A DNA stretch of 64,000 nucleotides from Mytilisepta virgata (Eukaryota > Mollusca > Bivalvia > Mytilida > Mytilidae), in the NCBI GenBank assembly GCA_028015205.1, contig CM051516.1, positions 53,076,230 through 53,140,229 on the forward strand. The letters are read 5' to 3'. Of this stretch, positions 23,701-58,107 are shown piece by piece (position 1 is the stretch's first letter; every line of letters starts with the position of its first letter). The notes below the pieces were generated by a model. It did not search any database. It saw only the letters and a list, made by a program, of their open reading frames with translations, and had not been told where the DNA came from. Position numbers and translations under genes: made by a program.

Positions 23701-25392
23701 AGAAAGTTCATATTATGATGTAAATGTGTACCAATTTTCATAATGCCGTGACCCCATTTTCATAGAAAAAAAAGGCCTCAACGAAAACCTTAACCTGAGG
23801 ATTCCCAATAGCATTTCCCATGTTCACTGAACACTGAGATCTAGGACAAGACCTTAAAATGGCATACATTTTAGAAAGTATATATCATGACTTACATGCG
23901 TACCAAGTTTCATGAAGATGTGACCACATCTTCAAAGAAAAAAATCTTCAACGCAGACCTTCACCGGTGGCGGAACGGCCGGACGGACGGACGAACAGAC
24001 TTTTGTTGGCGGGACATAAAAATGCCAAAACGACAAAAATTGTAAAGCCAAAACCATCGATGGAGATACTCCTTAGTTTTACAAAATTTAACATTTTTGT
24101 AACACTCAATTAAATTACAAATCGGAAACCTATCGCGACAATTTATATTAAAGATAAAAAAGATAACATACTTACGTCATAAAAGAAATCAATACATATA
24201 GACACTTCAAAGCTTCCTATCCACTCACGTGATCCATCGAATGATCCAGCCTTGTCTCCCATTTTAACTAAAGCCTTTTGAATATCTTTTATAAAAGGAA
24301 CATCTTTAGGGTCACTCCGTTGTATTTTTATCCAGGAACACATACTCTGCAGCGTTCTATACCCACAACCCCAACCCTGAAAACATGAAATCTAACAAAT
24401 ATTACGCAATTTCATTATATATATATATATATAATTCAATAATGAAAAACATTAAGAGTGTCTTATAATAAAAGTTGTTATCAGTCTTAGAAACTGAACT
24501 GAATTATTATATTTTCTAAAAATGCAAATTTTAAAATATCAGATATGATTTGCATTTTTAGAAAATAAGATATATCTGATATTTTAAAATTTGCATTTTT
24601 AGAAAATATGATAATATACAGTTCAGTTTCTAAGACTGATAACAATTTTTATTATAAGACACCCTTAATGTTTTTTTCATTATTGCATACTATTGTCTTA
24701 TCTGAAAAGGATAAGGCATCTTAGATGTGATAGATATTTTAGAGGAAAAAGGGGGGAATGTATTAATGTTGAGTACAGGACGGTAGTTGGTGCATTAGAA
24801 AGCGAAAAGTACTACCAGTCATGCCAGTAACAATTTACCTGACAGAATAAAGAGGATAACGCTACAGTCAATTTTCTTTATTATGTCTTTATTATGTCGT
24901 AAAACGAATATCTGTGACGCCATCATCGAAATAGTCCCAGGATGAAAACACTGATTATATTTAAAATATTAATATATACATTCGAATTTTATGGGCTTTG
25001 CTATAAAATGTAACGAAATAGCGATAAATATATCAATTATGATCTTTTTCCAACTCGAGGGCATAGCCGCTCGACGATGATAAACACTTCTTGTTGAAAA
25101 AAATCATAAATAATCTATAATTACACACAGTTTTATTCACACGACATTTGCGTGTACTTAAAACGTCGTATATGTACATTAATTGTTCCTCTTGGTTCTC
25201 CATACATTTAAATCCGTGGGCCTACTTTATACATTGACAAGACTCGGTCATCATTTTGATATTTAGATTATGACAAACCTGATCGTTTGTTCCGTCACAT
25301 CCATAAAAATAATAAATATAATCTCCGTTAACTGTCACATAGTTTTGTCCAGGCGGAGAAATGTGTAAATGAATACTACGATAATTCTGCAT
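17792..25392 (-). CDS. UFSP1: UFM1-specific protease, UFSP1-like (peptidase C78), complete, 208 aa
   Basis: Five exons (minus strand): 25279-25392, 24176-24376, 20165-20267, 19128-19198 and 17792-17929. Donors are GTTTGT, GTAAGT, GTAAGT and GTATGT; phases 0, 0, 1, 0 agree. ATG at 25390-25392 follows an in-frame stop, and TAG is at 17792-17794. The enzyme is a cysteine protease that exposes the C-terminal Gly of UFM1 and can remove UFM1 from targets. Visible motifs: 'YIYYFY' (Tyr30), '[10 protein letters not shown]' (Cys42), 'GSREWIGS', '[12 protein letters not shown]', '[15 protein letters not shown]' and 'DPH' (Asp164, His166). The Cys-Asp-His spacing (122 and 124) equals that I recall for mouse UFSP1 (Cys53, Asp175, His177), with Tyr 12 residues before Cys. 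It lacks the N-terminal extension of UFSP2, which favours UFSP1. Introns hold several transposons. A GTAAGA donor near 25941 could end a leader exon. Confidence 0.9.
18001..18110. repeat. Foldback element, 110 bp, in UFSP1 intron 4
   Basis: The left arm 'tgactgagtatattgtaac' is repeated in inverted form with few mismatches on the right ('gttacaatatactctgtca'), and an inner pair around 'ttgtcaacc'/'ggttgacaa' continues the stem almost to the centre. No coding capacity. Confidence 0.8.
19590..19835 (+). repeat. Tandem repeat, four units of ~70 bp, UFSP1 intron 3
   Basis: Each unit holds 'accaaattctacacatgtag' (or a close variant), 'gcctgcc' and 'ctgtataaaa'. The first unit is the most diverged. 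Confidence 0.8.
20760..21010 (+). repeat. Dispersed repeat ('gataccaattttgatgca')
   Basis: Shares 'accaattttgatgca', 'tttcgtcgatttat', 'atgttgaaaac' and 'gttgaagagcaaattca' with 34150-34440, and in part with 33180-33270 and 24010-24070. It lies in UFSP1 intron 2. Confidence 0.6.
21178..23600 (+). mobile_element. Helitron-like non-autonomous element, copy 3, 2.4 kb, in UFSP1 intron 2
   Basis: The 5' end has the stem AGGCTC-acca-GAGCCT (21184-21199) followed by 'tcgctcacctgg'. The 3' end has 'gacgccaagtgatggc', a strong hairpin at 23568-23598 (agctcac...gtgagct around 'gacccttcgggtc') and CTAA at 23597-23600. The interior has about five to seven divergent units of ~160-330 bp with 'gggcaataactcctaaatgg' and 'cccctatgttctatttttag' landmarks. 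It is the best-preserved copy of this family in the window. The Helitron class is inference; no Rep/helicase is present. Confidence 0.65.
23601..24070 (+). repeat. Second dispersed repeat abutting the Helitron-like element
   Basis: Divergent direct repeats ('aggtcaagacctta', 'ttagaaagttcatat', 'taccaattttcata', 'cttcaacg') of about 190 bp also occur at 20930-21180, so the Helitron-like copy at 21178 appears inserted inside an older array of this type. The block ends with 'ggacggacggacgaacagac' and 'ggcgggacataaaaatgcc'. Confidence 0.5.
24438..24685. repeat. Long foldback, 248 bp, in UFSP1 intron 1
   Basis: Two arms of about 110 bp are near-perfect inverted copies: 'cagtcttagaaactgaact' on the left is 'agttcagtttctaagactg' on the right, and 'ctaaaaatgcaaattttaaa' pairs with its complement. 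The flanking ends 'caataatg' and 'cattattg' are also inverted. No gene inside. Confidence 0.88.
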
Positions 25393-28344: not shown

Positions 28345-31180
28345 TCATTTTCATTGTCAGATAGTATAGGTGTGCGAAAGGGTACCAATCAGGACGGTGT
28401 AATGTCAACATTTTCCTTGTCAGTTAGAATAGGTGTGCGAAAGGGTACCAATCAGGACGGTGTAATGTCAACATTTTCCTTGTCAGTTAGTATAGGTGTG
28501 CAAAAGGGTACCAATCAGGACGGTGTAATGTGAACATTTTCCTTGTCAGTTAGTATAGGTGTGCGAAAGGGTACCAATCAGGACGGTGTAATGTCAACAT
28601 TTTCCTTGTCAGATAGTATAGGTGTGCGAAAAGGTACCAATCAGGACGGTGTAATGTCAACATTTTCCTTGTCAGTTAGTATAGGTGTGCGAAAGGGTAC
28701 CAATCAGGACGGTGTAATGTCAACATTTTCCTTGTCAGTTAGTATAGGTGTGCGAAAAGGTACCAATCAAGACGGTGTAATGTCAACATTTTCCTTGTCA
28801 GATAGTATAGGTGGGCGAAAGGGTACCAATCAGGACGGTGTAATGTCAAAATTTTTCTTGTCAGATAGTATAGGTGTACGAAAAGGTACCAAACAGGACG
28901 GTGTAATGTCACAGTTTTCTCGTAAGATAGTATAGGTGTGCGAAAAGGTACCAATCAAGACGGTGTAATGTCAACATTTTCCTTGTCAGATAGTATAGGT
29001 GGGCGAAAGGGTACCAATCAGGACGGTGTAATGTCAACACTTTCCTGATCAGATAGTATAGATGTGCGAAAGAGTACAAATCAGGACGGTATAATGTCAA
29101 CATTTTCCTTGTCAGATAGTATAGGTGTGTGAAAGGGTACCAATCAGGACGGTGTAATGTCAACATTTTCCTTGTCAGATAGTATAGGTGTGCGAAAGGG
29201 TACCAATCAGGACGGTGTAATGTCAACATTTTCCTTGTCAGATAGTATAGGTGTGCGAAACGGTACCAGTCAGGACGGTGTAATGTCAACATTTTCCTTG
29301 TCAGATAGTAAGTGTACGAAAGGGTACCAAACAGGACGGTGTAATGTCACAATTTTCTCGTAAGATAGTATAGGTGTGCGAAAAGGTACCAATCAAGACG
29401 GTGTTATGTCAACATTTTCCTTGTCAGATAGTATAGGTGGGCGAAAGGGTACCAATCAGGACGGTGTAATGTCAACATTTTCCTTGTCAGATAGTATAGA
29501 TGTGCGAAAGAGTACAAATCAGGAGGGTATAATGTCAACATTTTCCTTGTCATATAGTATAGGTGTGTGAAAGGGTACCAATCAGGACGGTGTAATGTCA
29601 ACATTTTCCTTGTCAGACAGTATATGTGTGCGAAAAGGTACAAATCAGGATGGTGTAATGTCAACATTTTCCTTGTCAGATAGTATAGGTGTGCGAAAGG
29701 GTACCAATCAGGACGGTGCAATGTGAACATTTTCCTTGTCAGATAGTAAAGGTATGCGAACGGGTACCAATCAGGACGGAGTTATGTCAACATTTTCCTT
29801 GTCAGTTAGTATAGGTGTGCGAAAGGGTACCAAACAGGACGGTGTAATGTCAACATTTTCTTTTTCAGATAGTATAGATGTGCGAAAGAGTACCAATCAG
29901 GATGGTGTAATGTCAACATTTTCCTTGTCAGATAATATAGGTGTGCGAAAGGGTACCAATCAAGACGGTGTAATGTCAACATTTTCCTTGTCAGATAGTA
30001 TAGGTGTTTGAAAGGGTACCAATCAGGACGGTGTAATGTCAACACTTTCCTGATCAGATAGTATAGATGTGCGAAAGAGTACAAATCAGGACGGTATAAT
30101 GTCAACATTTTCCTTGTCAGATAGTATAGGTGTGTGAAAGGGTACCAATCAGGACGGTGTAATGTCAACATTTTCCTTGTCAGATAGTATAGGTGTGCGA
30201 AAGTGTACCAATCAGGACGGTGTAATGTCAACATTTTCCTTGTCAGATAGTATAGGTGTGCGAAACGGTACCAGTCAGGACGGTGTAATGTCAACATTTT
30301 CCTTGTCAGATAGTAAGTGTACGAAAGGGTACCAAACAGGACGGTGTAATGTCACAATTTTCTCGTAAGATAGTATAGGTGTGCGAAAAGGTACCAATCA
30401 AGACGGTGTTATGTCAACATTTTCCTTGTCAGATCGTATAGGTGGGCGAAAGGGTACCAATCAGGACGGTGTAATGTCAACATTTTCCTTGTCAGATAGT
30501 ATAGATGTGCGAAAGAGTACAAATCAGGAGGGTATAATGTCAACATTTTCCTTGTCATATAGTATAGGTGTGTGAAAGGGTACCAATCAGGACGGTGTAA
30601 TGTCAACATTTTCCTTGTCAGACAGTATATGTGTGCGAAAAGGTACAAATCAGGATGGTGTAATGTCAACATTTTCCTTGTCAGATAGTATAGGTGTGCG
30701 AAAGGGTACCAATCAGGACGGTGCAATGTGAACATTTTCCTTGTCAGATAGTAAAGGTATGCGAACGGGTACCAATCAGGACGGAGTTATGTCAACATTT
30801 TCCTTGTCAGTTAGTATAGGTGTGCGAAAGGGTACCAAACAGGACGGTGTAATGTCAACATTTTCTTTTTCAGATAGTATAGATGTGCGAAAGAGTACCA
30901 ATCAGGATGGTGTAATGTCAACATTTTCCTTGTCAGATAATATAGGTGTGCGAAAGGGTACCAATCAGGACGGTGTAATGTCAACATTTTCCTTGTCAGA
31001 TAGTATAGGTGTTTGAAAGGGTACCAATCAGGACGGTGTAATGTCAACATTTTCCCTGTCAGATAGTATTGGTGTGCGAAAGGGTACCAATCAGGACGGT
31101 GTAATGTCAACATTTTCCCTGTCAGATAGTATAGGTGTGCGTAAGGGTACCAATCAGGACGGTGTAATGTCAACATTTTT
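28345..31180 (+). repeat. 63-bp minisatellite, about 45 units
   Basis: Each unit contains 'tccttgtcagatagtatagg', 'gtgcgaaagggtaccaatca' and 'ggacggtgtaatgtcaac'. The period is exactly 63 bp (21 codons), so open frames appear on both strands, but individual units carry stop codons in each (for example 'gtgtgtgaaag' and 'aatgtgaac' variants). From about 29.0 kb to 31.0 kb the array consists of two nearly identical 1005-bp blocks (16 units minus 3 bp). I treat it as non-coding. Confidence 0.93.
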
Positions 31181-33368: not shown

Positions 33369-33374
33369 TTTATT
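33369..33374 (-). terminator. Polyadenylation signal AATAAA (minus strand) of the mosaic gene
   Basis: TTTATT on the plus strand is AATAAA on the minus strand, about 15 bases after the stop codon at 33389-33391. This is unusually close to the stop, so a downstream signal may be used instead. Confidence 0.4.
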
Positions 33375-33388
33375 TTTCACCTTTCAAA

Positions 33389-36375
33389 CTACGAACGATT
33401 TGTTTTACAAAGCGGATAAAGCCTTGTTGTACAGCTATATGGGTTTAGATATCCTCTGCCATGATTTAGGTAAGCTGCTGCACAGGAATGTCGTGTGTGA
33501 CCAAATATGTTTGTCATATATTTCGTCAAAGAACTATCAACCCTACGGTGACTGTTAATCCAAACCCATTGATCATGTATATCCTTTCTTGCATCGACCC
33601 ATACACTGAATTCTAGATAAACAGAAAAAAAACATTAAACAGTATAACATTTACAACGAATAAGATTTGTTGAATAACATCCGAATCATATGTTTTATCT
33701 AATAGCATTTGAATTAGCAGAAGTCATTGGTAAACATGGTGCATTCTAAATACCATCTTTTATTCTGACATACGTGTTGTTGTTTAAGGTACATATATAG
33801 TCTCCAAGGCATCAGTTCTATCAACATTTGTTTGATTCAACACTTTTCCCAAGAGTTTTTCCGCGATACAAATCTAGATGCATTATTTACTTTAAGTTCT
33901 CATGTAAATAAGTGTTATATGTGGCATCTGCAATTCGTGCAATTGGGTTTTACTTGTTGTCTCGTATAGGTATAAATGATAAAAACATTCAGTTTATTTC
34001 ATTTTAGTCGGGCATTGCTTAAAGGTCGTATGATGACCTTTTTGTATTGTCAATTGATTCTAATGTTCCCAAGCCAAATATCCTTTCTGTTTTTCAGAAT
34101 ATATAATCGTTTCAAGTAGCGTGGTGTGCGAGGCCATTAAAAGAATTAAGACTGAGATGAATTATTTTTCACAAATTTTTCTTAATAAAAAATTTGAAGT
34201 TTATTTCAATGATACCAATTTTGATGCACAAGATGTTCGCATTTCGTCTATTTATGACTCATAAGTTGTACTTAAAATGTTGAAAACCAAAACAGTAATC
34301 CTGAAGGTTGAAGAGCAAATTCACAAATACCAAAATAACCAAAAGAGGTAAAGTCAAAACCATCTAAGGACAAAGCTATGCATGAGGGAGATACTCCTTA
34401 GTTTTCACAAATTTTACAATATGTTATTATCAATTTCGGGCTAGTATCGAAATGCAACAAAGCTTGAGATACCCTCGGGGACTTGGAATCCACCAGCATG
34501 GGGCATCAAGTATGTGGTAAAAAATAACATTTTTTGATACCAATTTTGATGTAAAATATTTTTCTTTCGACTTTAACATTAATACTACGGAATGATGTAT
34601 CATCAGACGAAGTGAAAATATCGAGGGCTATAGTTCTATAATGAAATAAGTTCTACTTTTTTCAAACAAGTTGTTCTTGTTGCGATATTTAACATAAAAT
34701 ATACGTATTTACTTTCAGCATCTACATGGTCTAATACTTCTGCTAATTCTCGCGTTGACAGCAAATCATCTGCCAATCTTCCACAGTGATTTTTGCAATA
34801 AAGCTGTTGCAAAAAAATTAAAACTTCTGTAGACTTGAAATAAATGGACACTAGGAACAGACTTATTGTCATTAACATATAACACACTTTACAGTTAGCA
34901 TATATATTGTAATAAATACCTCAAAGAAATATTAATTTTTGCCAGTATGCATAAACTTTAATCTAAATGTTTCTCAGACCCAAACTTCCTGTATTTAAGA
35001 AAAAACTTACATGAAGGTTACATAATATAAAAATTTGAAGATCTTTAATATAGTAATAATTAAATATTTGAATTGTGAAGGTGAATTCTACAAAGACGTC
35101 TTCTGTTTGTCATATATTTTACAAAAATATTGTTGAAGATCGGCATACCCCTCCTATTCCGATTAATAAAACTTTCTCATTGGGAAAATATTAAATTACC
35201 TAAGTTTTAACTTAAATCTTAACTTAAGTAGTTTTATGCATACTGACCATAATGAAAGTTGATTCATAAAATCGAAGTAAGTTTGCTTTGAATTTTCTAC
35301 TTTCCAGGCCTTTTCTGTGAGAGTAAATTTGGGTCAGACTATATATAGCACACGACAGGGAGGGAAAATGTATCACATTTATTATGGACATGCAAAATTG
35401 ATCTCAAATCGACTTTGTTATATGTCAAATGCAAAGAACAAAAGGGATCTATTCAAAATGAACATGTTTCACAATAGCTCATATAATAAGGTAACGAATG
35501 ATGAAGGCATGATAAAGGCTTGGTGAACTGTCGAATGGACCAAAAGGTAAGCTCACTATAGACTAATTAATATACATTGAGCCTTTTGTCTTACCCTTTT
35601 TCTCACTGGTTTTCTATTAGTCATTGTTGGACAGAAGTAATCCTTGATTTAAAAGATTGCCGATATATATGTATATAACTAAGCAAGTGCCTCTGTGACA
35701 AAATAACATTTTATACCCAAGTGTATGAAGTTATGCAAAAGTATAACACACACATGACACAATGATATTATGTTTATTATCTAATATGCCATGAGGTAAG
35801 AACATTTTTTCAAAAATTAAAAATGAAAACAGTTAGGTAGAAATAAATTGTCGGTCAGCTAACTGCTATATAGACTAAACCTTTTATAACTATTTAACAT
35901 CAATACTTACAGGTATCAAAGAGGGCGCTCGGGATTACTTTAAACATCTTATACTAATTAAGGCGCCATTCAGATATGGTTTAACAATTTATTTTAACAA
36001 ATTATGCTAATACTAACACGAAAAAAGGTAATTTAAATCTTGGATTATTTATATTAATAACAACCATGTTTGTCCAAGATATAAACTGCTAGATACAGTT
36101 TTAGGACCATCATATTACCACTTAAAAGTCTTAACTTAGCTATACTGGGCGACTGAAAGCTGATATTTTGCTTTGAAAGACGAGCGTGAGTTGCTCCACA
36201 TAACACAATTTTATATGACTTAGTCTGGTCCAAGTTGAAAAATATATTTTTATTATATATAAATGTACCTCGCTCTCTTGTTGCGTTAACAGAGTATTCC
36301 CTACATGATAGCAATAATGGTCCTTAAGCACATAAGTATATCCCACAGGACAATTATGGTGTATATTAGCACAAT
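33389..36375 (-). CDS. C-terminal C-type lectin domain of the mosaic gene (three exons)
   Basis: Exon 36269-36375 holds 'CPVGYTYVLKDHYCYHVG', the long-form N-terminal hairpin with its disulphide. Exon 34713-34803 holds 'YCKNHCGRLADDLLS', the helix-1/helix-2 region. The terminal exon 33389-33612 holds 'WVDARKDIHDQWVWI' and 'HSCAAAYLNHGRGYL', then 'YSC' and 'PLCK' closing the domain. The usual calcium/sugar motifs (EPN or QPD, and WND) are absent; the WND position reads Tyr-Leu-Asn. Calcium-dependent sugar binding is therefore doubtful, and protein or other ligands are possible. It enters in phase 1, compatible with the preceding Ly6 exon. Confidence 0.8.
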
Positions 36376-39300
36376 CTGAAATGCCAAAGAAATCCAAATT
36401 ATCGAAACATCTTTTTACCTTTATTTTTTTTTTGTATTAGAAATACCAATGAATACCATATTCTTGTACCAACCACCTAAAAGCTTATAATTACTAGGAA
36501 GCTAGTTTATATGTAGCGGTAGGCTCAATAGTATGTCCCATGTGAAAGGATTGTAAGTTTCACGTATTGTTAAATACGTTCAGGAAGTTTTGAAACATCG
36601 TATATACAGGGTTTGAAGGAAATAATTGATACATTGTAGTAGAGGTCTTTTCCTATCCTTATTTCCATTGCAACGTTGTTAATAAATGCAATCGTCTTGT
36701 TAATAACTTATAAACTCGGTCGTATCTTACGTACATCTACAGTATGGGGCTTAAAGTGCGAAATTCATTTTGCAATTCTTTTAAAACGGCTTTTTCTCCC
36801 AATCAGCTGGATATTTTAACTTCAAAGTGGGCTCTCACAAGTACTGCCGATTTCTATTAAACTAAATAATTACATCATTAATATTTCCGAGTGACATTTC
36901 TGAATACTGCAATCAGCAGCCATAATAGTCAAAGATTTCTTTTAAGTCAAGCGGCCTTTTTAAGAAAGAAGATTTATGATTTCAGCAGTTATTTGGCCCA
37001 ATCTGACATGGAAAATTAAAATTAAGATTCCTCGTTTGATCGTAATGATCGAACTTTCACAATCTATTTATCATTGTACAAAATTCCTTCCCATACATGT
37101 TGCAACAGCGACGTCATGAACATTTGCTAAATCAAATATTTGAAGAAAATTTAGTTTTTCACGGTAGAGTTTGGTCAAGACAACTATAACCAACAGCCTT
37201 GCCTAAAAAAGATTTTTTAATATAATGTTTGTCTTACATGAAAACACATTTCAGTCAAATTCTCACTTTTAAGACAGGGCAGTTCCTGTTTTTACCCGTG
37301 TGAGATTTTCTTATACGATAAGATAAGAAATTCACGTGCCCTTTACCACCAAACCGTTTACTCAGGTTTTTTTTTACATAATAAGCTTAAAATACAGTTG
37401 TACATTCTTTACGAGAAGTATTAGTCAAAATATAAAGTTTACATTAAAATGCTTTTCCAGTTCAAAAGAACCATTAAACTCATAATTACAATTCCGCAAA
37501 CTCGGGCGTATGTTTCATGTATTATGACGTCCCAAAAGGGGAAGTAACTCGTTAGTGTAAACAATGGCATGCAACTCATTTTTGGCTTTTTGTTTCGAGT
37601 GTTTGGGGGTGAGAAACAGAATCAAACACCATGGAAAGTACAAGACTGGAAAATCTGGACATCCTTGGGCAAGATTTCCAACGTCTCCAACTCTGCAAGC
37701 CTCGTTGGAGGATGGGAAATCTTACCCTCGGGTGTCTGAGATTTTCTGGTCTTGTACTTTCCCCGGTGTTAGATTCTCTATATCTTTTTGGGCAAGACTT
37801 ACTCATATCAAAATTTAAATTCAAAGGTCCAAAAAGAGTGAAATTAGGTGTTTTTTTTTTTATTGATTTCTTCACAATTACCCATCTTGCAAGCATATTC
37901 CAGCTTTTGCATAAATTTCATGTTGAAAAACAAAACAGATTCCTTAAAATGCAACATTGTAAAAGTACTTAATGATGGCTAAGAGTCAGTTTTTAATACC
38001 TTTTTGATTTTGGAATTCAAGGGGCTAAATACTAAGGCAAAATCGTACCATGCCCTTTGTTGGGGCAGTAGGATGACTAATCGTACTACATACATAAACT
38101 GGGAAATATTGCGAACAAAATTTATCAATCTTTGTCAAATTTTGCAAAGATACTTGTATTTTCAGTTCTATAACCATTTGAATAATTCTCAACTTGAGAT
38201 CACAAATGCGTCATCTATACCACGAAGTTGTATTTAATTACCTTCTTGCAGTTAGAGGAAATTTCTTAAAACTATAAACTTTTTTAAGAGAAAATAGTTT
38301 TAAAATTAAAGTATATAAGGTTTTCTTGACTGAAAATAAAAGTATAATAGTCATGTTATTCGTAAAAAGCAGATAAATGGTAATTTGGACACAATCGCTC
38401 TGACATCTCACTGTCCCAGCAAATTCCAAAAAGGTGATTTGACGTCAGAGAAATCTCGGACTACAGCCATAATTACCTGTGATAGTTACACCGTGAAAAA
38501 GAGCACAAGTTAACCCTTTTATGCAAGTACCGATCATTTTGTTATTGTTACAGTTAATGGCCACTTTATTAGATATCTTACTGCACTAGTTTTTAAGGTT
38601 GATTTATATATACCAGATGTTCAGGATAAAAAAAAATGGTTAAGATACATGAAACCATAACACCGAATAATGTCACTAATGTTAAAAAGCCTGTTCTATA
38701 GTAAAAATCAAGAACCGATTAATTTTAATGTCATTTACATACTAACGACAGGGTAACAAGAGTTACAGCTAATTTGGTATTTAATACTACAGTAACCGTA
38801 CATACTAAAGAAATGAATTGCGGTGGTAGCAGGAACAGCTTTTGTCGTAGGCATAGCTGTAGTCACTGCTTTGGTAATTCTTCCATTACAAAGGTCCGTT
38901 TTACAACATCCACCTTTCAGAGAAATTCCTTGTTGTCTACGACCAAATCCAGTCTGAACTGGGGAACCTCCAAATCTCTGGCAGAGCTTCAATTTTGACA
39001 ATATATAAATGAGCTTTGTATAAAACAAGATGGGGAAAATCCGAACGGCCATTTAGCAATAATTCTTGTGTACTTTTTCTTTGAAAATTTACAAATCATT
39101 CTCCATCTGAGAAAGGTTCACCAGACTTAACACATGAACGCAGTGTCCCACAAAAAGAATGAAAAGGATCTAAAATTGTATAACAACCAAACTTTCAAAT
39201 TGATGATGAATTCTGTTGAGGACTACATGTATGCCAGAAAATGGACTTCAAAGGAACAGGAGCCTGCTGACACACTTTCAGCATGTGTGAAGGTTATTAG

Positions 39301-42300
39301 GTCAATGATACAGGTCCGAATTAAAAACCTCCAAGGGTTTATGAGCACAAAAGCTTCATCCATTTTTAGAGGCCCTAAGGTTGTTGAAACATTGACTCGT
39401 CTCCATGACAAATATATAATTGCCCCAGCCAGCAAAGCCCCTAATAACATCGTTTTTTTTCTGCAAGAACTATTATTTTGAGTGTCTTAAAAACGAGTTG
39501 GAAATAGATAACACTGCAGGTAACCCAACTTATACACCGACCACACTCACTAAGCAGGAAGTCCTTGATAACGACCAGACCGTTCTTCATTCCTTTGTCA
39601 TTTCTGCAAAGGATGAAGAAATGGACCTTCCTGCTCTTTATTGGATTCCTAAACTACATCAGAATCCGTTTACACAAAGGTACATTGCTGGCTCAGATAA
39701 TTGCTCTACGAAACCTGTTTCAAAGATTTTAACACTCATACTGACATGTATTAAAGAGGGCCTTCAGAATTACTGTGAAACATCATATTCCACCAGTGGC
39801 GTCAATGGATTCTTAAAAACTCAGAAAATTTACTACAATATCTAAAATCAAAATCTTTGGCTACATGCAACAGTATAAAAACATTCGACTTCTCTGCACT
39901 CTATATTATCATACCACATTCTCAATTAAAATATCATTGAAACAACTAGTTCATTAATGTTTTTTCTAGAAAAATGGCACACGCAGGTATAAATTTCTAG
40001 CTTTAGGTAGAGAAAAGGCTTATTTCGTTAAGAACCACTCTGATTCTGACAAAAACTATTCTGAAGATGAAATTACAAACATGTTAGATTTTCTCATAGA
40101 CAACATATTTGTGAATTTGACGGTCGAATTTTTCAACAAACAATCGGCATTCCAATGGGAACCAACTGTGCTCCTCTCCTTGCCGATCTGTTTCTGTACT
40201 CATTTGAAGCGGACTTCATCCAAGGCTTCTACGTGAATACAAAAAGAAACTAACCCAATCCTTTAATTTCACTTTTTGTTATATAGCTGACGTGTTGTCG
40301 TTACATAACGATACATTCCAACTTTCTACATCTCATCTACCCCAGTGAACTTGAAATTAATGATACATCAAAGTCCGCTTCATATTTGGATTTGTTTCTC
40401 GAAATAGACAAGGATGGACATCTGAACAAAACTTAATGACAAACGTGATGACTTCGACTTTCTTATTGTTAACTTTCCTTCTTGAGTAGCAATATACCAG
40501 CGTCGCCTGCATATGGTGTCTACGTTTCTCAGCTTATGCGATATTCAATGGAATGCGTGAGTTACCGTGAATTTCGACAAAGAGAATTACTGCTGTCGCA
40601 AAAGTTTCTTAACCATGGTTTTATCAGGGATAAGTTGATGTCATCACTTATGAAATTTTACGGTCGTCATCCCGAATTGATTGACCGTTACAATGGTCCA
40701 ATATCTAAGGTGATGTTTGACCTGTTCCCACTGTCGTAACCTTTCATGTACCTCCACCGATTTGTAACTACCACCGGATTGACTTTGTTGACGGGTGGCG
40801 TATACGAAGCAGGAATTGCTTACCTTTCCGGAGCACATGAGTTCACTCCTGGTTTTTATAGGAGTTCGTGTTGTTCATTGTTTTTTAGTTTTCAGTGTTT
40901 ATTTGTTGTGCTTGTGGTTGTTCATTTGTCTTCCCGGGTTTTGTCTGTCTAATGGATTACGTTTTTTGGATTGCTCCTTAAGTATATTTGTCCTCTTTTG
41001 TATATGAAAATGGGCAAATGTAGTAGGAGGTTGGGAACAACTGTCTGATTTTATGGGGTTAGATGATGGGGCAAAGAGTGATTTTGATCATGAATCTGTG
41101 AATTTGAAAGTTCTGCCATGCCTCCCCTCACCCTTTAATTCCCTTTACAATGCACGTTTGGGAGAGAAATGCTAACCAGTAAATGAATAGACGTTCAGTT
41201 TGTACATTCTGTACAGTTGGAAACCTGTTTATACATCTTCTTAATATAAATTCTTTCGATATAAATTGTGTACATCGTATTTCGACAATTCTTTATTTAT
41301 TCTCTCCCCAATGTCATTGAGTGGAAATGAAATGCGAAATGGGGTAAATTGTGATAGACACAATCCTGAAACTGAATCAAAAAAGTAAAAATCATACGGC
41401 TAGATCACATGGTTTATTCCTCAATTCATAGCAAGCACTGTCAGTATACTTAAGACTTTCTATATTCCTTTGATTATAATGTTGTTATTTTTTTTTTACT
41501 TTATGCACGTGATAAAATATTTCGTTTTAGAAGTGAATATATAAAATCCAAGTGACTGAAATGATTTTGTTATTCATCTGCTACTTCAGATTGTAACAGT
41601 TTTCTCAATCGTAGCCACTCCATTACAATATGATATTATATTTTAAGACTTCCGTTTCAAATAATATACTTACATTTTCATCCAGACATCCCAATCTAAA
41701 AACAGGTCGGAGATCGATGCTAAGTGTTTCAAGTTGGAAGCATTCCTGTAATGCATCAAATTTCAAAATGAATTGCAACCACCGACACGATTTTAAAATA
41801 AGTTCGGTTTATTTTTAAAAAGAAAACTTTTCTACAATAGACATTATATTAAAATTCGAATTTCAAATACAATACATTCACATAAAAACCATTTACATTT
41901 ACATGCAAGTAAAATATCAAATTAAAACGTCGTTATCTAATATGCTGTAAAAAAAGGTTTCTCACGAGCAGTATACATTTTAAACTGTTACCTGGTGTAT
42001 TGCAAAATGAAAGTCAAAGGCCAATTAATCAATTCTCGTTAGGGATGAAGATTTCAACGAGGCTATGGTCTCGATAACTGATGCCAGTTTTAGACTGGTA
42101 AGAAAAGTGTCTGTCTTGTGTTTGAGGAAAGAAAAACTCTTAGTACGTTAAAGACACATCTGTAGACATCGAAACACATAAGGCTAACTTGCCGCTCTCA
42201 TGCTCACCATATATAGAGAAATATGTATAGGTTGCTGTAAATTGTTTTCCTATAAATAATCTACTATACCTTTCCTGCTTGACATGTACTAGTTGTGTTA

Positions 42301-45300
42301 CAATCTTCTGGACGATTTATATCATTACAATCGTAACATTGAACTGAAAAAATGATCACAATAGCAAAGAGTATAAAGATGTTTATGTCAGAAATAAAAA
42401 AAAAAAAAAAAAAACCACGATAAAGAATACATATATTTTTTGACACATAATGCCCTAGGAATCGACTTGTTAAGAGCATACTACACCTGTCTTTTACTTG
42501 AAATTACGTATCTAGATGACACCAAAACAAATAATAAAAATAGACGCCTGAATCGCTCATCTGGATATTGAGGAGAAGCATTTATGGTCAATCTTAAATA
42601 AGCCATACAGTGTTAGTACTCTGGAATTTCAAATCAGTTTTAAAGTAACAACAATTGGATATAACCTTGACATGATCATTTACGACAAGTTTGAATTCCT
42701 TTGGGACCAAAGAAACAACACGTCGGTATTACTTTGCAATTATCATTTATAACAAGTTAAAAATTCTGAGTCAAGTTCCAGAGAGATAAAATTAACTAAT
42801 CATGGTAATGCTTCACTAAAGGTCGTGAGAGTTACGACAGATCGCAAATCCTTTGAATGCATACACGTTACGACTGGTCGTAACTCTTGCGACTTTAGTG
42901 AAAAGGTACCCAGAACGGCATATTTTGCGGCCTTGATGGCCATGTTTGATACGATAGTGGTATATTAACAAAGTAGCAAGAATTATTTGTGTCCTCATAG
43001 TACATGTATCTAATCCAACATTTTTTTGTATCAGATTATTAAACGTAACAGTTTACTATCATCTTCACAAGAATTTTTAATAAAATTCTTGTAGGATTCT
43101 ATATTCGATGATTTCCGATTGGCACAAAAGTCACGAAAATTGTTATGGACCTTATTAAAAAAACCATCTGTAGAGTGTTGGATCAATCAGGTGAGTCGTC
43201 ATTGAGTAGAAATTTTTCAGAGTTCAGAAAATCTGAAATTTTAATACTAGGCACTTGTTGCCATCGGCACCAAAGTAACATCCCTTGGGAGGGACCTTAT
43301 AAGGAACACGTCTGTATATTAGGTTTAAAACATATGTTATTTAGACAGTGGGATTCTTTTAAAACTTTAAGCACTCTCTCCATTGTTAATATAATATAAT
43401 TATATAGGCTCATGGATCACGTCCTTGTCCTGAACATCAAATGGTTCCTCGCTTATTCAATTCTGACATTTATATATGCTTCCTCGCTTAATCAATTCTG
43501 ACATTTATAAATGGTTCCTCGGTTATTGAATTCTGACATTTATATACTTACAACATTTTCTGCACATGCGCGGGCATATCCTAGAAGCTATGCAATCGTT
43601 GCTGCAGAACGCTGGGTTGGCCAATGATATTCTGAGACATATGTCATTATCAATGTTTTCACAAGTTTCATATATTGGTGGAAGCGCTTCAAAAGGAAAA
43701 TTAAATGAATGAATAACTTAGAGGAAAATAGTAAATCCAAGAAATGGTATTTCGATAATAGAGTGAATTTAAGAACATAATTTGAATTGACTATGGTAAG
43801 AAAGGTTAAATTTTGTAAAAACTGAGGAGTATCTCCTTCCTTCATAACTGTGTCCTTTAATAGAGGGTTTGAATTTACCCTCTATTCATTTAATTATTTG
43901 AATTTACTCTTCGGGTGCAACGTTCTGAGTTCTCATTTTGGCTTTCAACATTTTAGGCCACGTATACAACTGTCGTGAATCGATGAAATGTGCTTGTCAT
44001 AAATAATTTTTTTTTATACATGTTACAAACAAACTACTAAATTTGTGCTTACGAAAATAAATTAATCCGTGGTTAAAATAGAAAGTTATTAAGACAGTAA
44101 ACCCAGTAATGTGTTTAATCCCTTCCTTATACCGGATTTGACATGGGCAGCATGGCAGGTGTCCACACGAAGCAGAGACTGCTTTCTCTTCCTGAGCACC
44201 TGAGTCTACCCCCGGTGTTTTTGGTGGGGTCCACGTGGTTCATTTGTTTTTAGTTTTCAATTGTAGTGCATGTATTGTTTTTGTCTTGTTTTCGTTGTTC
44301 TCCGCAGTTTGTCAATTGTTTCGATTTTCCCCTTCTTTGAATATCCTGTTGTATCTCTTGACTTTACTTACTTATAACACGTCTTGCCACTTTAATTATT
44401 GTAGCAGATAAGCAAGTATGTTCCATGTAAATCAGTTTTCATCCTAGACAAAATTACCGGAAGCATTTTTCAAATGCCATTAAGTATTCAGTGAGGATGT
44501 CATTCGCTTAAGTATACCGGTAATTGATATATTCTAATATAGACGTATTTTTAATTCAACTTTTCGATAAGATACATGTATCAGTAGACAATTAACAATC
44601 TGATTACTCTGTTTACCATGTTTACAGGTTTAATAGTGAGATAGTTACCAATAAATAGTACAACCGAAAACGGCACATTTTGAACATGATGTTTTATTGA
44701 AGTACTGTTCATCCCCATTTTTCGTTTTTTGTTGTCGTGTGTCATCTTAAATTTGTGTTTTTTCCCCTGTTTTTTTGTTATCACGTTAAACGATAGACAA
44801 TTTGTCCTATTCTGTTTGACAAAGTAACAAATTTGTTCCAAAGTTCATACCTGTTGTATTTTGCACAGCCACTGTTGTCCTTAATGGAAGGAGATCGATT
44901 TGCTGAGGTAATATATTATTACATTTATCAGTATTACAGCACCCTCCCTTTACATCCAGATTTGATCTTCTTCCATTGTTTACTTGTTGTTGACATATCT
45001 AATACCAAGAGCAAATGAAATACGTCAATGTTTGACTGCAATTATTGTGCATACAACCACATACTTATCTAGAAATTCATTTACACAATTGTTATTTATT
45101 GCTGTACTTATATAGTATACAAATATATACCTTTGATGTGTTCAACAAGCATTATTTGTCTAATATCGCACTGATAAAATTAAGCATATTTGTAATCGTG
45201 TGCATCTGAAATTATCGTCAATATAGAATTAATTACCTGTTGGCTACATGGCTATTCTTTTAAAGGAGTAGGGGGCTTTAAGCCCCCCTTTCGGTCTAAA

Positions 45301-47581
45301 AATATGAACATCTAAAGAAAGGGTTCAAAATTACCATGAACCTAGCACAATATACAAGGACTTCGAAAATAACTCTATTCGGCTTCATTTACAGCATCAT
45401 GACGTGAAAATGACATCATATTTCTGCTTGAATAACTCAAATTCTTGAAAATGTCTGATTTTTAGCAGTGTGCCATGCACGTTTTGCTTCAGAAAACATT
45501 GTCCGCATTCAGGAACAAAAAAAATATTTTTATAAAAGATGTATATTATCCTAATGCATATTCATGCCAAATATGAAGTTGTTTCTTGCATGCAGAGGCA
45601 CTTTCCCGGTCCAAAATATGCGTGAGAATTGGCCAAAATCTTCAAAATCTAGGCATTTTCACAAAATTGTGTTATTGTGATTATGGCTTATTGCCAGAAC
45701 GATGTAAGAAATACGGAACTTTACTTCATTTACAACTAAGTAGGTATTTCAAGGTTATTTGTGCAACTATATCTTTAGCTTACTCGCAGTTTAATTTTTG
45801 GTAATATTTTAGGCCAAATAGGGGTCTTAACGCCCCTTTTCCTTTAGTACTGTAGACTTACTTTTATAATGAAAAGAAAGAGCTAATCTTTATCCGTTTG
45901 GCTGAACAGTTGCACATTGAAAATTATTCGAACAAAGGTAACACTAAATTTAAAACGAACCTAGATAAAACATACATTTTGTTATGTACAATGTATTAAT
46001 AAATTAATAATAAGCTCGTAATTACATTTCATTAATCTCAAGTACATGTACTATATAAACCGTTAAGAGAAACACCTACTCACATCTTTCTTAGCACAGC
46101 CCATTTTATAAACTTCTCGGAAATCATCTGTAAATGTCTGTGTTGTAAAACAATACTGTAAAAGAAAAGGTATGCAATATAACACTTTTCTTGTACATTT
46201 TTCCATTTTCTATTTTTAAGATAGAAAGAAGACCATCCATCATTAATTTTTGTCTGTATTTATAACCTGTTTTTTTCTTTCGATTTATATTATATAGTAT
46301 AGCATTACTAATACAATGTACAATGTACATACCTGATATATGGATATAAAACGGTTAGAAATAAGAAAATATTTGGACCTAATTATAATCATAAGTGTTA
46401 TATTGTTGGCAACGGTTTCAATCATTTATTAACTTTATAAGTGAAGTTTTCTTCACTCTATTGTTAGAAATAGAAATAATCTCTTCGTGCATCATGTCTG
46501 GTCCATGGCAATACACGTTCCCTTTTCGGGGTGTTATTTTTTACTTTTCTGTTTAACTGAGCGACAGTGTCCGACCAGCAGTTTTCACATTTTGACCCTG
46601 CTATCTAAATTATATACTGTTCAACTAATTCAAGCGTCCTCGTGTTGGTAATCATACTGTATTGCCTTTTAAAGTATATTTTAAACACCAGCTTGCAGGA
46701 TAGATAAGAGGGAGATTTGGGTACCAGTAATTTGTTTTGTGTCTGTACCAAGTCAGACTATCTTGATTCTCTGTTGTGTTTATATTTGTGTTTTATACTT
46801 TTTTATGTTACTATTTTATCCAGGGTTCTGGTCTATTAGGTGGCATTGATTGATTGGTATGTCATTGTTGACCTTTCCTGTTTTCAGTTTGGATTTTCAT
46901 CCAGTGATATTTTACTTACGTGGTCATAAGTTGGACAGTCTACTATTACTGTGCAATTGGCTGGGTGATCTGTTTCATGACATGTATAACACTTCAGTGC
47001 TATAAAATAAATACAAATTTACTCTTTTCTCGTATCATTGTAAATGAATTGTATATGTTTATCTTTATTTATCTATATTACATACATGTATTTGTTGATA
47101 CAATGTTGATGTATTGTACGAGTATTTTAACAACTTACATGTCTTTTTATGTCGAACTAGAAATTTTCGATACCAGAAAATATTGGAATAATTTACCAAG
47201 TTATATAAATGTGTAACTAATTAGTTATGAACCATTTCATATTTATTTCTAATTCATCTCGATTTTCGAATTATGTTATGTCTTGGAACATGATTGGTTA
47301 TTTAGGATATATTTGTGTGTACTATCTTACAATATAATACAAAAAAATCAAATGAAAAATTGGACTGAGTAAATGGTTGTAGGATTAACAATGCAAGTGT
47401 TTTGTAAAGCAGTGGTAACACAAGTTGTACTTACGACAATGACCACAGAATCTTGTACATATACTAGAGAAACAGCCATCTGCACACATTTCTGGAAACT
47501 TGGCAGACAAACGTTTGCACACATCTGTGTCCATGTCAGCACAGGTTTGTCCGTTGACAAGTATAAAGCAACCACCAAATA
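33389..47581 (-). CDS. Secreted mosaic protein ShKT-Ly6-ShKT-Ly6-C-type lectin (eleven exons, first exon missing)
   Basis: Minus-strand exons: 47435-47581, 46920-46999, 46084-46155, 44851-44998, 43552-43686, 42270-42343, 41674-41745, 38806-38986, 36269-36375, 34713-34803 and 33389-33612. All junctions are GT/AG, and the phases (1,0,0,1,1,0,0,1,0,1) match exactly, giving 442 residues to TAG. Numbering starts at the first full codon. Residues 1-11 look like the end of a signal peptide ('FGGCFILVNGQ'); 13-48 and about 157-193 are ShKT modules; about 51-126 and 195-277 are ten-cysteine Ly6/uPAR three-finger domains ending 'GGCCNTDKCNN' and 'GGCCKTDLCNG'; a Thr/Pro/Ala linker follows the second; about 304-442 is a C-type lectin domain. 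ShKT and Ly6 folds occur in many non-toxic secreted proteins, so no toxic role is implied. An extracellular recognition role (immunity, mucus or matrix) is inference. The start exon and promoter upstream of 47581 were not found. Confidence 0.8.
34140..34440 (+). repeat. Dispersed repeat in the last intron of the mosaic gene
   Basis: Shares 'gataccaattttgatgca', 'aatgttgaaaacca', 'gaagagcaaattca' and 'ggagatactccttagtttt' with 20760-21010 and 24010-24070. Confidence 0.6.
37626..37771. repeat. Foldback element, ~146 bp, in a mosaic-gene intron
   Basis: 'ggaaagtacaagac' and 'gaaaatct' on the left are matched by 'agattttctggtcttgtac' on the right, with further pairing through 'aagatttcc'/'ggaaatctt'. 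Open frames across it are artefacts of the inverted structure. Confidence 0.8.
38806..43686 (-). CDS. Second ShKT-Ly6 module of the mosaic gene (four exons)
   Basis: Exon 43552-43686 encodes an ShKT module ('ETCENIDNDICLRIS', then 'RICPRMCRKC'). Exons 42270-42343 ('QCYDCNDINRPEDC'), 41674-41745 ('ECFQLETLSIDLRPVFRLGC') and 38806-38986 ('LCQRFGGSPV' to 'GGCCKTDLCNG') make one Ly6 domain of ten cysteines. The last exon continues into a Thr/Pro/Ala linker ('TTAMPTTKAVPATTA') that is probably O-glycosylated. The acceptor of the last exon has a weak pyrimidine tract, so its exact edge is the least certain. The 2.7-kb intron before it carries a decayed retroelement. Confidence 0.78.
39060..41060 (+). 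pseudogene. Decayed reverse-transcriptase retroelement (Penelope-like by resemblance)
   Basis: Fragments in several frames from 39134 to 40740 match one reverse-transcriptase protein in order: 'IIAPASKAPNNIVF', 'LPALYWIPKLHQNP', 'RYIAGSDNCSTKPVS', 'GIPMGTNCAPLLADLF' near 40145, and 'SSNIPASPAYGVYVSQL' near 40482. Frameshifts separate the pieces, and the catalytic YxDD box reads Tyr-Ile-Ala-Asp at 40280-40291, so it is dead. No GIY-YIG endonuclease was seen. A 3' tail with 'tacgaagcaggaattgctta' runs to about 41060 and recurs at 48058. It sits in the intron between the seventh and eighth exons of the mosaic gene, in opposite orientation. Assignment to Penelope-like elements is from memory of related proteins and moderately sure. 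Confidence 0.72.
42541..42720 (+). repeat. 5' fragment of the Helitron-like family
   Basis: 'cgcctgaatcgctcatctgg' near 42545 resembles the 'cctgtatcgctcacctgg' start of the family; no 3' end follows. Confidence 0.45.
42812..42902. repeat. Foldback, 91 bp
   Basis: The outer arms 'ttcactaaaggtcgtgagag' and 'ctcttgcgactttagtgaa' are inverted copies, and 'gttacgac'/'gtcgtaac' extends the stem. It lies in an intron of the mosaic gene. Confidence 0.75.
43441..43545 (+). repeat. 35-bp minisatellite, three units, beside a splice donor
   Basis: Units start at 43441, 43476 and 43511 with 'tggttcctcgcttattcaat' and 'tctgacatttata'. The array ends next to the GTAAGT donor (43546-43551) of the second ShKT exon of the mosaic gene. 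Confidence 0.8.
44121..44372 (+). repeat. Dispersed repeat, copy of the 13558 family
   Basis: 'ccttccttataccgg', 'acatgggcagcatggc', 'tgcatgtattgtttt' and 'tcgttgttctccg' occur in the same order as at 13558. It lies in an intron of the mosaic gene. Confidence 0.7.
44851..47581 (-). CDS. First ShKT-Ly6 module of the mosaic gene (four exons)
   Basis: Exon 47435-47581 holds a signal-peptide end and an ShKT module ('QTCADMDTDVC' to 'CTRFCGHC'). Its acceptor is 'cttgtatttag', and an in-frame TAG lies just upstream, so the start codon must be in an earlier exon. Exons 46920-46999 ('KCYTCHETDHPANC'), 46084-46155 ('YCFTTQTFTDDFREVYKMGC') and 44851-44998 ('ICQQQVNNGRRS' to 'GGCCNTDKCNN') form a ten-cysteine Ly6 domain, followed by a 25-residue linker. 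Exon sizes and phases mirror those of the second module (80/74, 72/72 nt, then a phase-0-to-1 exon). Confidence 0.8.
45255..45845 (+). repeat. Possible short element bounded by C/G-rich hairpins
   Basis: Opens with 'gggggctttaagcccccc', a hairpin, and closes with 'aggggtcttaacgcccctt', a similar weaker one; no gene inside. It lies in an intron of the mosaic gene. The limits and nature are uncertain. Confidence 0.35.
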
Positions 47582-47798
47582 CTAAATACAAGATAAATAA
47601 CTAACATGAAGATTCAACACTTTGATGAGCAGTTTTTAGCTCATCGTTGAAGACCTTTGAGGTGATAAACAACGATAAAAATGGTGTACAATGTATATTT
47701 GCTTTTTGTATTATGTTCAGGTATTGCATGAGTTAATTGTGCATTGATCCAATATCCGTCTTTTATAGTATATTGCTGATTTATTTTCTTTATTTTGC

Positions 47799-48036
47799 CT
47801 CGGTGGCCGAGTGGTCTAGGTAGTTCGCCATGACTGCTAATAATCACTGAGGTTGTGAGTTCGAATCTCACCTGTGGCGGGGTGTGTTCAACTCTGATCT
47901 AATAATTGACAAGGATTGCAAATTTTCCTACCGAAGGTCGGTGGTTCTCCGGCTTCCTCCACCAATAAAAACTGGCCGCCGCGAAATAGCCAAATGTGCT
48001 GGAAACGGCGTAAAACCCCAACTAAACAAACAAAAA
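47799..48036 (+). mobile_element. tRNA-derived SINE, second long copy
   Basis: Same order as at 17265: 'cggtggccgagtggtctagg', 'gttgtgagttcgaatctcac', 'cctaccgaaggtcggtgg', 'aactggccgccgcg' and 'actaaacaaacaaa'. Flanking duplication is weak ('tattttcttt' against 'tatattcttt'), so this copy looks older. Confidence 0.82.
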
Positions 48037-48185: not shown

Positions 48186-50439
48186 GGGTTTGTTTATCCT
48201 TCTTAATTACGATTTACGGGTTTCTTTCTATTTATTTCTGAATAACGATTGTGATAGAAAATAGTCTACTATAACTACATACATAGAACAAAATGTAACG
48301 CCTCCATGTCGACAGAATACGGTCCACTAACACTGTGTTCTTCTTATCTTATTTCGCTAGATTACGGTCAGGATAAAATTAGTACATTACATGTATTAGG
48401 TGACATGATTCTAGTTTCTCGATGTATAACTAGTTTGATCTTTTAACTGAATATAACATTAGCGAGGAAAAATGTCATCCACTGATGAAGGTATAAAAGC
48501 AAAAACAAAAATGTCAAAAAGAAAAAAAAGTAACTGAATGTGGGCCTGCACGTGAAAATAATAAGTAAAATCGATTTTTCCTGAAGGATTTTTTGGACCA
48601 TCCCATTTTTATTTGGTCATTTTTTTTTAAAATAGTGATATCTATATTATACTAAAATTAAGGGCTCGATTTCTTTGGGCCGTCATCATGTAACAACTAC
48701 AATAGACACACTTCAAATCAGATTGAGGATGAATGTGTTGTCCACGTTTAGGTCGACACGTTTCTTTGAATGCTGGAATTATCGATAAGTTAACACGATC
48801 CGAACCAATCCGACATGTTTCCGTGCTTCGTCATTCGCCTCCACTTCCGTTCTAAGGATAACTATTCAGCTATAAGGTGATCAGAGGTAACCGGGCGGTT
48901 AGTTACTGATAGTTGTAATTAATTTTAGATGTGATAACAAAGACATGATACCAATCTAACAAATTTAGGTTTTTTAATATTATCAAATTTATAGTGACTT
49001 TTACATCACAACAACCCGGTGCATATCGCTCTGTAATGTAACAAAACACTGTTCAAAGTGTCAAAACATGAATTTTGACCTAGTAACATTTTAAAATATT
49101 ATTGGTTCCTGGTATTCTTAAGAAAAACCTCCAAACCGTTATCAAATAAACAAACTGATTTCTTTGTTTCAAACTGTTATTTTTATACTTCTGTGCACAC
49201 TATGACGTCTCACGACTTTAAACCTAAATAGAACAAATGTGTGTCTCACTATCCTTAACATTTTCCACCCATAATTTTCCCTGTTAATCTTTCAGTAGTA
49301 CTTCTAACAGACAAGACAAGCAAACATAAAAAAATAAGAATAGAATTTGACCTTTTTTCGGTAGAATAATTTAACAATAACTATAAAGTTGTTTTTGCTG
49401 ATACCTTATAATTTGAAGGAGAAACAACTCATTTGATGTGTCTCCAGATCCTTTTCAACAAGTTTGCATACAAATTAACAAAAAAAAACAAAAAAAAAAC
49501 AACAAAAATTTCAAAAGATATCTTGTTGATATATTTCACGTTTCTGAGGAGAATTGCTAACAATTATAATTGTGAAAGGGACACAACTCCTATGTTGTAA
49601 AAGGAAACCCGGTGATAGCTGATGACTACACAAGTAATAGCTTTTTCAATAGATATATTACTACACAGTTTTTTTAAGTATGTGTTTTGATGGCTTTTTT
49701 TGGCTGTATTTTTTTAATAAAGGATATTCAAAAATTTTATACTTATTTTTTTTTAAATTGCCATACAGATATATCATGTATATGTAATAGCCTTTATCTT
49801 TAAGTGACATTTGACGATATCTATGACAATATTTATGTTGTGAAATGTATGATTGTGGTAAAATATGTAAAATTTAACAATCATACATGTAAATACAATA
49901 AGGCTATTAATAAAAAGTACAAGGACTAAACAATTACCACGACCTGACTTGGGACAGGCACAGGAGACATGTGGTATTTAGTACATTAGGAAGATTCTAA
50001 GTGATATTTGTACAGGAGACATGTGGTATTTAGTACATTAGGAAGATTCTAAGTGATATTTGTATTTCTAATTGTCTTAAATCATGAAGTATAAGTTGTT
50101 TAAATAAACCGATGCAACAGTCTCAAACGACAGCTAATCCCCTGGCCCGTTAGTTTGTAATAGGAAACACACATAATGTAATATTTAGAATCTTAGCAGT
50201 GGACCTTATTGCAAAACATATCCAGAATAATAAATAAATGAATTTTCAATATGTATTCAGTCAATGTGTCTATAAATAGACCGCTATTTGTCTATCCATA
50301 TAATGCAGATATACAGGTACGACAGTGTGAAACACGCTTTATAAAACAACAAACTAAAAGCGCCAAATGAAGTTCTGTGTTTTATTAGACAGAAAAGCGA
50401 AAAGTTTAAATCTTTAGTACGGTAAACTGAATAAATATT
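48186..50439. other. Intergenic; upstream of the mosaic gene
   Basis: No firm exon. The start exon of the mosaic gene is expected on the minus strand upstream of 47581, here or just beyond, but a short phase-1 exon could not be singled out by eye. A GC-richer block at 48650-48905 ends in 'gtaaccgggcggttagttac' and may be an old element. Confidence 0.4.
49960..50063 (+). repeat. Perfect tandem duplication of 52 bp
   Basis: Two adjacent copies start at 49960 and 50012 with 'acaggagacatgtggtattt' and are identical over the unit. Confidence 0.9.
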
Positions 50440-58083: not shown

Positions 58084-58107
58084 TTCGAGTTGGCAAGCCA
58101 ACTCGAA
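58084..58107. promoter_or_regulatory. Perfect inverted repeat abutting the GPCR start codon
   Basis: Arms 'ttcgagttggc' and 'gccaactcgaa' are separated by two bases and end directly before the ATG on the minus strand. In mRNA this would make a stable hairpin at the start codon. A role is only a suggestion. Confidence 0.4.

Follow-up and report, generated by a model that had tools for sequence, protein, structure and literature searches.

An intact gene of Mytilisepta virgata, probably of 12 exons, for a probably secreted protein with two ShKT-like/Ly6 units and a C-type-lectin-like end

We analysed a stretch of 64,000 nucleotides from Mytilisepta virgata (contig CM051516.1, positions 53,076,230 to 53,140,229; hereafter the window, with positions counted from its first letter), the minus strand of which carries a real, intact gene. 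The eleven exons between 47581 and 33389, together with a proposed first exon, probably make up a gene of 12 exons (Table 1), which is predicted to encode a leader followed by two units, each made of a seven-cysteine ShKT-like module and a three-finger domain of Ly6/uPAR type, then a linker rich in Thr and finally a head that resembles C-type lectins. The original prediction had joined the eleven exons, with consistent reading phases, into a protein of 442 residues, and reassembly of the exon set from the DNA reproduced that count: the exons are preceded by AG and followed by GT, the final exon terminates in TAG in place of a donor GT, and a single frame is kept across all ten junctions with no internal stop. 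Thirteen relatives (P0001 to P0013 below) were collected, 12 from a protein search and one more from a profile search, the best database relatives being Mytilus proteins. When 12 relatives were compared with the window by tblastn (E limit 1), all eleven exons were matched on the correct strand, most of them by many relatives, while the exon at 34803-34713 was matched by one relative alone (P0010, E = 0.019). Because the splice borders and phases are intact and relatives match every exon, we judge that the eleven-exon pattern is not a product of chance. Modules and domains are bounded by phase-1 introns, and the two Ly6 domains are interrupted alike (phases 1-0-0-1), as expected for units that were shuffled and then duplicated.

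Table 1. Exons of the minus-strand gene and its possible polyadenylation signal, in window coordinates
Feature	Position	Strand	Content and evidence
Exon 1 (proposed)	48283..48307	-	Start ATG and 8 leader residues; phase-1 donor GTATGT; likely, not proven
Exon 2	47435..47581	-	Remainder of the leader, then 7-Cys ShKT-like module 1; phase 1-1 exon
Exon 3	46920..46999	-	Ly6/uPAR domain 1, part 1; Pfam and tblastn
Exon 4	46084..46155	-	Ly6/uPAR domain 1, part 2; Pfam and tblastn
Exon 5	44851..44998	-	Ly6/uPAR domain 1, part 3, and linker; Pfam and tblastn
Exon 6	43552..43686	-	7-Cys ShKT-like module 2; phase 1-1 exon
Exon 7	42270..42343	-	Ly6/uPAR domain 2, part 1; Pfam and tblastn
Exon 8	41674..41745	-	Ly6/uPAR domain 2, part 2; Pfam and tblastn
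Exon 9	38806..38986	-	Ly6/uPAR domain 2, part 3, including the conserved FGRR motif; Thr-rich linker
Exon 10	36269..36375	-	C-type-lectin-like domain, part 1; Pfam and tblastn
Exon 11	34713..34803	-	C-type-lectin-like domain, part 2; one relative matches
Exon 12	33389..33612	-	C-type-lectin-like domain, part 3; ends in the stop codon TAG
AATAAA, possible poly(A) signal	33369..33374	-	Directly 3' of the stop; read from sequence

The eleven-exon model contains no ATG, since the frame of the exon that begins at 47581, when read unspliced, extends back seven codons to a TAG. A candidate first exon at 48307-48283 encodes MEALHFVL and ends at a phase-1 donor (GTATGT); it completes a 20-residue leader, MEALHFVLLFGGCFILVNGQ, and brings the protein to 451 residues. 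With this exon the first module cysteine becomes residue 22, as it is in 6 of the 10 relatives that have a complete first module (it lies at residues 17 to 21 in the remaining four), and the leader is identical to that of P0002 at 9 of 20 positions and to those of six other relatives at 3 to 6 of 20. Within 15 kb there are 151 phase-fitting ATG-to-GT combinations, 20 of which, the candidate among them, pass a loose filter on leader length and hydropathy; in our judgement, 48307-48283 is very likely the true first exon. The best 15-residue stretch of the leader has a hydropathy of 2.45, a value that depends on the proposed exon, and the later 19-residue maximum is 0.98, with no strongly hydrophobic, membrane-like stretch after the leader. 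These features point to a protein that is probably secreted, as was first proposed, and soluble, the leader itself depending on exon 1. The proposed intron 1 also holds a tRNA-Ser-like sequence on the plus strand (47796-47880; ARAGORN; Rfam tRNA, 32.9 bits), which, as a guess, may belong to a tRNA-derived short interspersed element. Two overlapping open frames on the plus strand of intron 8 (39131-39845) resemble what we take to be reverse-transcriptase remnants; neither gave a Pfam match above cut-off, and a PDB search with the second frame returned nothing credible.

Each window module has seven cysteines, spaced C-x7-C-x10-C-x3-C-x4/5-C-x3-C-x2-C. Of 23 such modules found in the family, 19 were scanned and aligned, without the four that belong to P0005 and P0009; all 19 share six invariant cysteines, and the seventh, which is fourth in order, is present in 17. 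The ShKT motif has six cysteines and ends in C-x3-C-x2-C. That six-cysteine pattern and its ending are present in the modules, and the seventh cysteine is foreign to the motif. For the plain ShKT label of the original prediction the support is cysteine spacing plus a profile match short of significance, with none from Pfam: PF01549 (ShK) matched none of the 19 family modules in a Pfam scan at E up to 10; both window modules failed to match any Pfam family; a search of the PDB with the module profile (E up to 10) gave two matches, a 'ShTK domain protein' (7l2g, E = 0.15) and an LH3 chain (E = 0.2), the former being a match to a solved ShKT domain that is not significant; and a profile comparison with four six-cysteine modules of the family aligned no more than the last 9 columns (probability 6.6). 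A two-sequence module model was poor (mean predicted local distance difference test score, pLDDT, 60.8; predicted template modelling score, pTM, 0.35) and yielded no Foldseek match, while separate six-cysteine modules of P0001 and P0011 did match PF01549 but, at 16.6 and 16.0 bits, fell short of the cut-off of 20.9. Because Pfam is silent, the PDB profile match is non-significant and the six-cysteine comparison spans 9 columns, 'ShKT-like', taken from the cysteine spacing, seems to us a fair name for the modules. ShKT domains have the disulfide pairing C1-C6, C2-C4, C3-C5, and a survey of ShKT domains in a snail mentions an uncharacterised seven-cysteine array that precedes ShKT modules (PMC6409789).

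Profile search upheld both predicted Ly6/uPAR domains, each of which exceeds the Pfam cut-off of 24.8 bits: UPAR_LY6 (PF00021) scored 39.4 bits over two stretches of the full protein and 26.1 bits with the second domain alone, and the first domain was also matched by Toxin_TOLIP at 41.2 bits. Ly6/uPAR domains are defined by ten cysteines and a CC-x4-CN end, and both window domains have ten cysteines and end in CC-x4-CN (our Ly6 cysteine pattern counts 12, since it includes two cysteines of the preceding module). The spacer between the 7-Cys module and the Ly6/uPAR domain is 2-3 residues. The second Ly6 domain bears FG[RK]R in all 10 proteins scanned, and visual inspection shows it in P0005, P0007 and P0012 as well, the P0010 model being without the stretch concerned; we take this motif to resemble a dibasic cleavage site.

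The predicted lectin domain stood as a C-type-lectin-like domain. Scanned alone, the last domain matched Lectin_C (PF00059) at 35.4 bits against a cut-off of 22.6, but the scan of the full protein did not list Lectin_C and the classical sugar-binding motifs are missing. When the heads of the window protein and seven relatives were scanned with PF00059, six of the eight passed, and P0001 (22.5) and P0008 (17.5) failed; for P0009, the head of which was not scanned alone, the full-length scan did not list Lectin_C. Neither EPN nor QPD occurs in any of the ten family heads (one of them partial), and a literal WND is likewise absent; other W-x-D triplets, found in 7 of the 10 heads, lie by our reading before the usual motif region. 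The head thus described would probably bind ligands on microbes or other surfaces, with no Ca2+-sugar site of the classical kind. Outside the gene, a stray C-type-lectin exon-like piece was noted on the minus strand at 27738-27634 (best E = 2.8e-5 in a 1.1-kb search, 0.034 over the whole window), together with a possible lectin-type end seen by eye at about 27290-27211 on the same strand, whose frame looks broken and which may be a decayed neighbour. Protein and DNA comparisons within the window brought up no second copy of the gene; the one further feature to emerge besides the gene was the lectin-exon-like piece near 27.7 kb, and DNA matches elsewhere in the window look like dispersed repeats.

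The full order of two module-Ly6 units and a lectin-like end was found in 8 of the 13 relatives (P0001, P0002, P0003, P0004, P0006, P0008, P0009 and P0013), namely six Mytilus proteins (three from M. trossulus and one each from M. galloprovincialis, M. edulis and M. californianus), one from the scallop Argopecten, and P0002; part of the first Ly6 domain is missing from P0009. Among the others, P0005 has both units and a cut-off head, its model seeming, by our reading, to continue through an intron; the gene models of P0007 and P0010 look broken or fused, P0010 resembling two adjacent genes of the family joined into one; and the scallop proteins P0011 and P0012 have no lectin end. P0010 and P0007 (Mytilus coruscus) each lie on an 830,340-base contig, which hints at a gene cluster. 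P0002 is the closest relative over the whole length (48% identity; units 67 and 73%, head 29%), and because its contig of 1,711 bases is too short for introns of the kind found in the window gene, it is probably a transcript or spliced copy. Three M. trossulus proteins, LOC134687947 (P0001), LOC134687637 (P0003) and LOC134688096 (P0013), share the order over nearly the whole length, yet their identities to the window protein (44, 41 and 35%, and 39, 33 and 27% in the head) indicate that they are not the same gene, and P0001 has an extra six-Cys module, unlike the window protein. The Argopecten irradians 'mucin-2-like' protein (P0006; 706 residues) has the same two units and lectin-like head but differs in a long Ser/Thr-rich repeat linker between the units. 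The 'mucin-like' proteins of Ylistrum balloti (P0011) and Pecten maximus (P0012, the record of which begins past the first module) have two Ly6 domains, in front of which stand 7-Cys modules; they differ in lacking the lectin head and in having near the end a six-Cys ShKT-type module, which is the one that scored below the PF01549 cut-off in P0011 and was not listed for P0012.

By sequence comparison, the protein belongs to a bivalve family that has no proper name in the databases, and the failure of the Pfam ShK model to detect the ShKT-like modules helps to explain why annotations lack one. We found no description of the domain order in openly licensed PMC papers, judged by title or abstract start and with preprints outside the scope; the order is undescribed as far as this literature goes, but it is common to most of the relatives and not unique to this gene. 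A survey of bivalve lectin-like genes describes uncharacterised, bivalve-specific multidomain proteins, its group 'C', in which a lectin-like domain is likewise joined to others, those named in the discussion being WSC, sushi, scavenger receptor, apextrin, Ig and CUB (PMC10140915). Neither 'Ly6' nor 'upar' appears in that survey's main text, to which the count is confined, so the family may still be in group 'C'. 'Ly6', 'upar' and 'three-finger' are absent from the available sections of a review (PMC12842671), and in those of a mussel expression atlas ShK comes up solely in connection with metalloproteases and among the enriched terms (PMC5549309). What is added to the bivalve lectin-like repertoire is an apparently undescribed domain combination; the novelty lies in that combination and not in a new principle.

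In a tree of 23 units, one branch (100/99) separates 11 first from 12 second units. Because mussel and scallop rows occur on each side of this branch, the unit duplication is placed before the mussel-scallop split. A search for a single-unit (module-Ly6) ancestor, which used an alignment of 11 units against 144 candidates (proteins of about 63-201 residues that share short exact words), returned none at E up to 0.01. Conservation of body and head was compared over the 28 pairs formed by eight proteins (the window protein, P0001, P0002, P0003, P0004, P0006, P0008 and P0013). Mean identity without the shared cysteines was 43% for unit 1, 41% for unit 2 and 27% for the head, and head identity was below that of both units in 27 of the 28 pairs, which are not independent and mix paralogues with possible orthologues.

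A structure model was made for P0002, parts of which match uPAR, C4.4A, PSCA and C-type-lectin-like chains. In Foldseek, uPAR and C4.4A were on top among the best 50 of 748 matches; among the matches listed by VIA-align the lectin part alone was covered, and several of the top ones were snake-venom C-type-lectin-like proteins, tied with non-venom chains. A scan of NCBIfam, a prokaryote library, gave no match. uPAR and C4.4A likewise have more than one three-finger domain; the window protein differs from them in having no membrane-like stretch after the leader, and to our knowledge they have neither a ShKT-like module nor a lectin head.

Our favoured reading, held with moderate confidence, is that the locus is one intact bivalve gene of probably 12 exons and that it encodes a secreted protein for recognition, conserved in the body and variable in the head. 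The body would serve as a scaffold locked by disulfides and the head as the variable binding part, and the protein would act in recognition or adhesion, either on mucosal surfaces or in the haemolymph; an old conserved body joined to a variable head makes a testable candidate for a recognition system. The protein has 42 cysteines after residue 20 and each module has an odd number; the odd cysteines, Cys 45 and Cys 189 as the fourth of each module, might conceivably pair with each other and lock the two units together. Of 11 comparable proteins, the window protein among them, P0004 is the only one without the fourth cysteine, which is missing from both of its modules; this double loss would fit an inter-module bond. 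A bolder extension, in which such a disulfide clamps the units into a closed double body so far confined to these bivalves, FG[RK]R, placed in a loop of the second Ly6 domain, acts as a convertase cleavage site that serves as an activating switch, and the fast-changing heads form a small diversified recognition set, strikes us as improbable.

Besides the results on the modules and the silent Lectin_C scan already given, several observations weigh against this reading. The gene is known here from genomic DNA and protein comparison alone. The second Ly6 domain is slightly better matched by Activin_recp (26.8 bits) than by UPAR_LY6, although we take both to be three-finger-type models. The first Ly6 domain of P0001 has nine cysteines only, so unpaired cysteines may occur, and the paired loss in P0004 amounts to one event; were two losses independent, the chance of their striking the same protein of the 11 would be about 1 in 11. 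The P0002 model is weak (mean pLDDT 60.8, pTM 0.36) and its uPAR alignments mostly have a root-mean-square deviation of 25 or more, so that it provides no evidence on domain arrangement, while the full protein compared with PDB sequences gave three matches, the best at E = 0.054. Finally, the lower conservation of the head may reflect relaxed constraint.

Four other explanations were weighed. The introns are long, the locus is known from genomic DNA, and some family models in the databases seem erroneous (the fusion-like P0010 and, by our reading, the intron read-through of P0005), all of which could suggest that two or more separate genes were wrongly joined; the single-gene claim is nevertheless sustained by phases that agree at every junction and by the occurrence of the same order within one protein in 8 of 13 relatives, including P0002 on its short contig, and we regard separate genes as extremely improbable. 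That the protein is a Ca2+-dependent lectin of the classical sugar-binding kind to which accessory modules were added is improbable in view of the absent EPN, QPD and WND motifs and the W-x-D triplets that sit, as we read them, ahead of the usual motif.

The two remaining alternatives concern the role of the protein. Both module folds occur in toxins, ShKT peptides inhibit K+ channels (PMC6409789), and the Toxin_TOLIP match to the first Ly6 domain and the venom chains among the top matches of the P0002 head could likewise suit ion-channel or receptor blockers of venom-peptide type. The window protein is large and multidomain, however, and among the best 50 of 748 Foldseek matches of P0002 the top ones are uPAR and C4.4A; Ly6 and ShKT modules are common among non-venom proteins and we know of no venom apparatus in bivalves, so that we consider a blocker very unlikely. 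Being cysteine-rich with a Thr-rich linker, the protein could instead be a structural or adhesive component of shell, byssus or mucus matrix, in keeping with the 'mucin-like' names and long Ser/Thr-rich stretches of its scallop relatives, but it has no long repeat stretch of its own, and a lectin-like head more variable than the body fits a binding part; we think a matrix role unlikely and prefer recognition.

Elsewhere in the window, an exon-like stretch on the minus strand (24176-24376) strongly matches Peptidase_C78 (E = 1.2e-22), and a single open frame of 321 residues on the same strand (57151-58116) matches rhodopsin-family G-protein-coupled receptors (7tm_1, 47.3 bits). A further minus-strand frame of 760 residues (9437-11719) contains a 60-base tandem repeat in three copies (11361-11542), its best Pfam match being Reg_prop at 20.1 bits, just under the cut-off of 20.4. 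A 63-base unit repeated 45 times forms a minisatellite at 28346-31179, which carries open frames of >100 residues on both strands.
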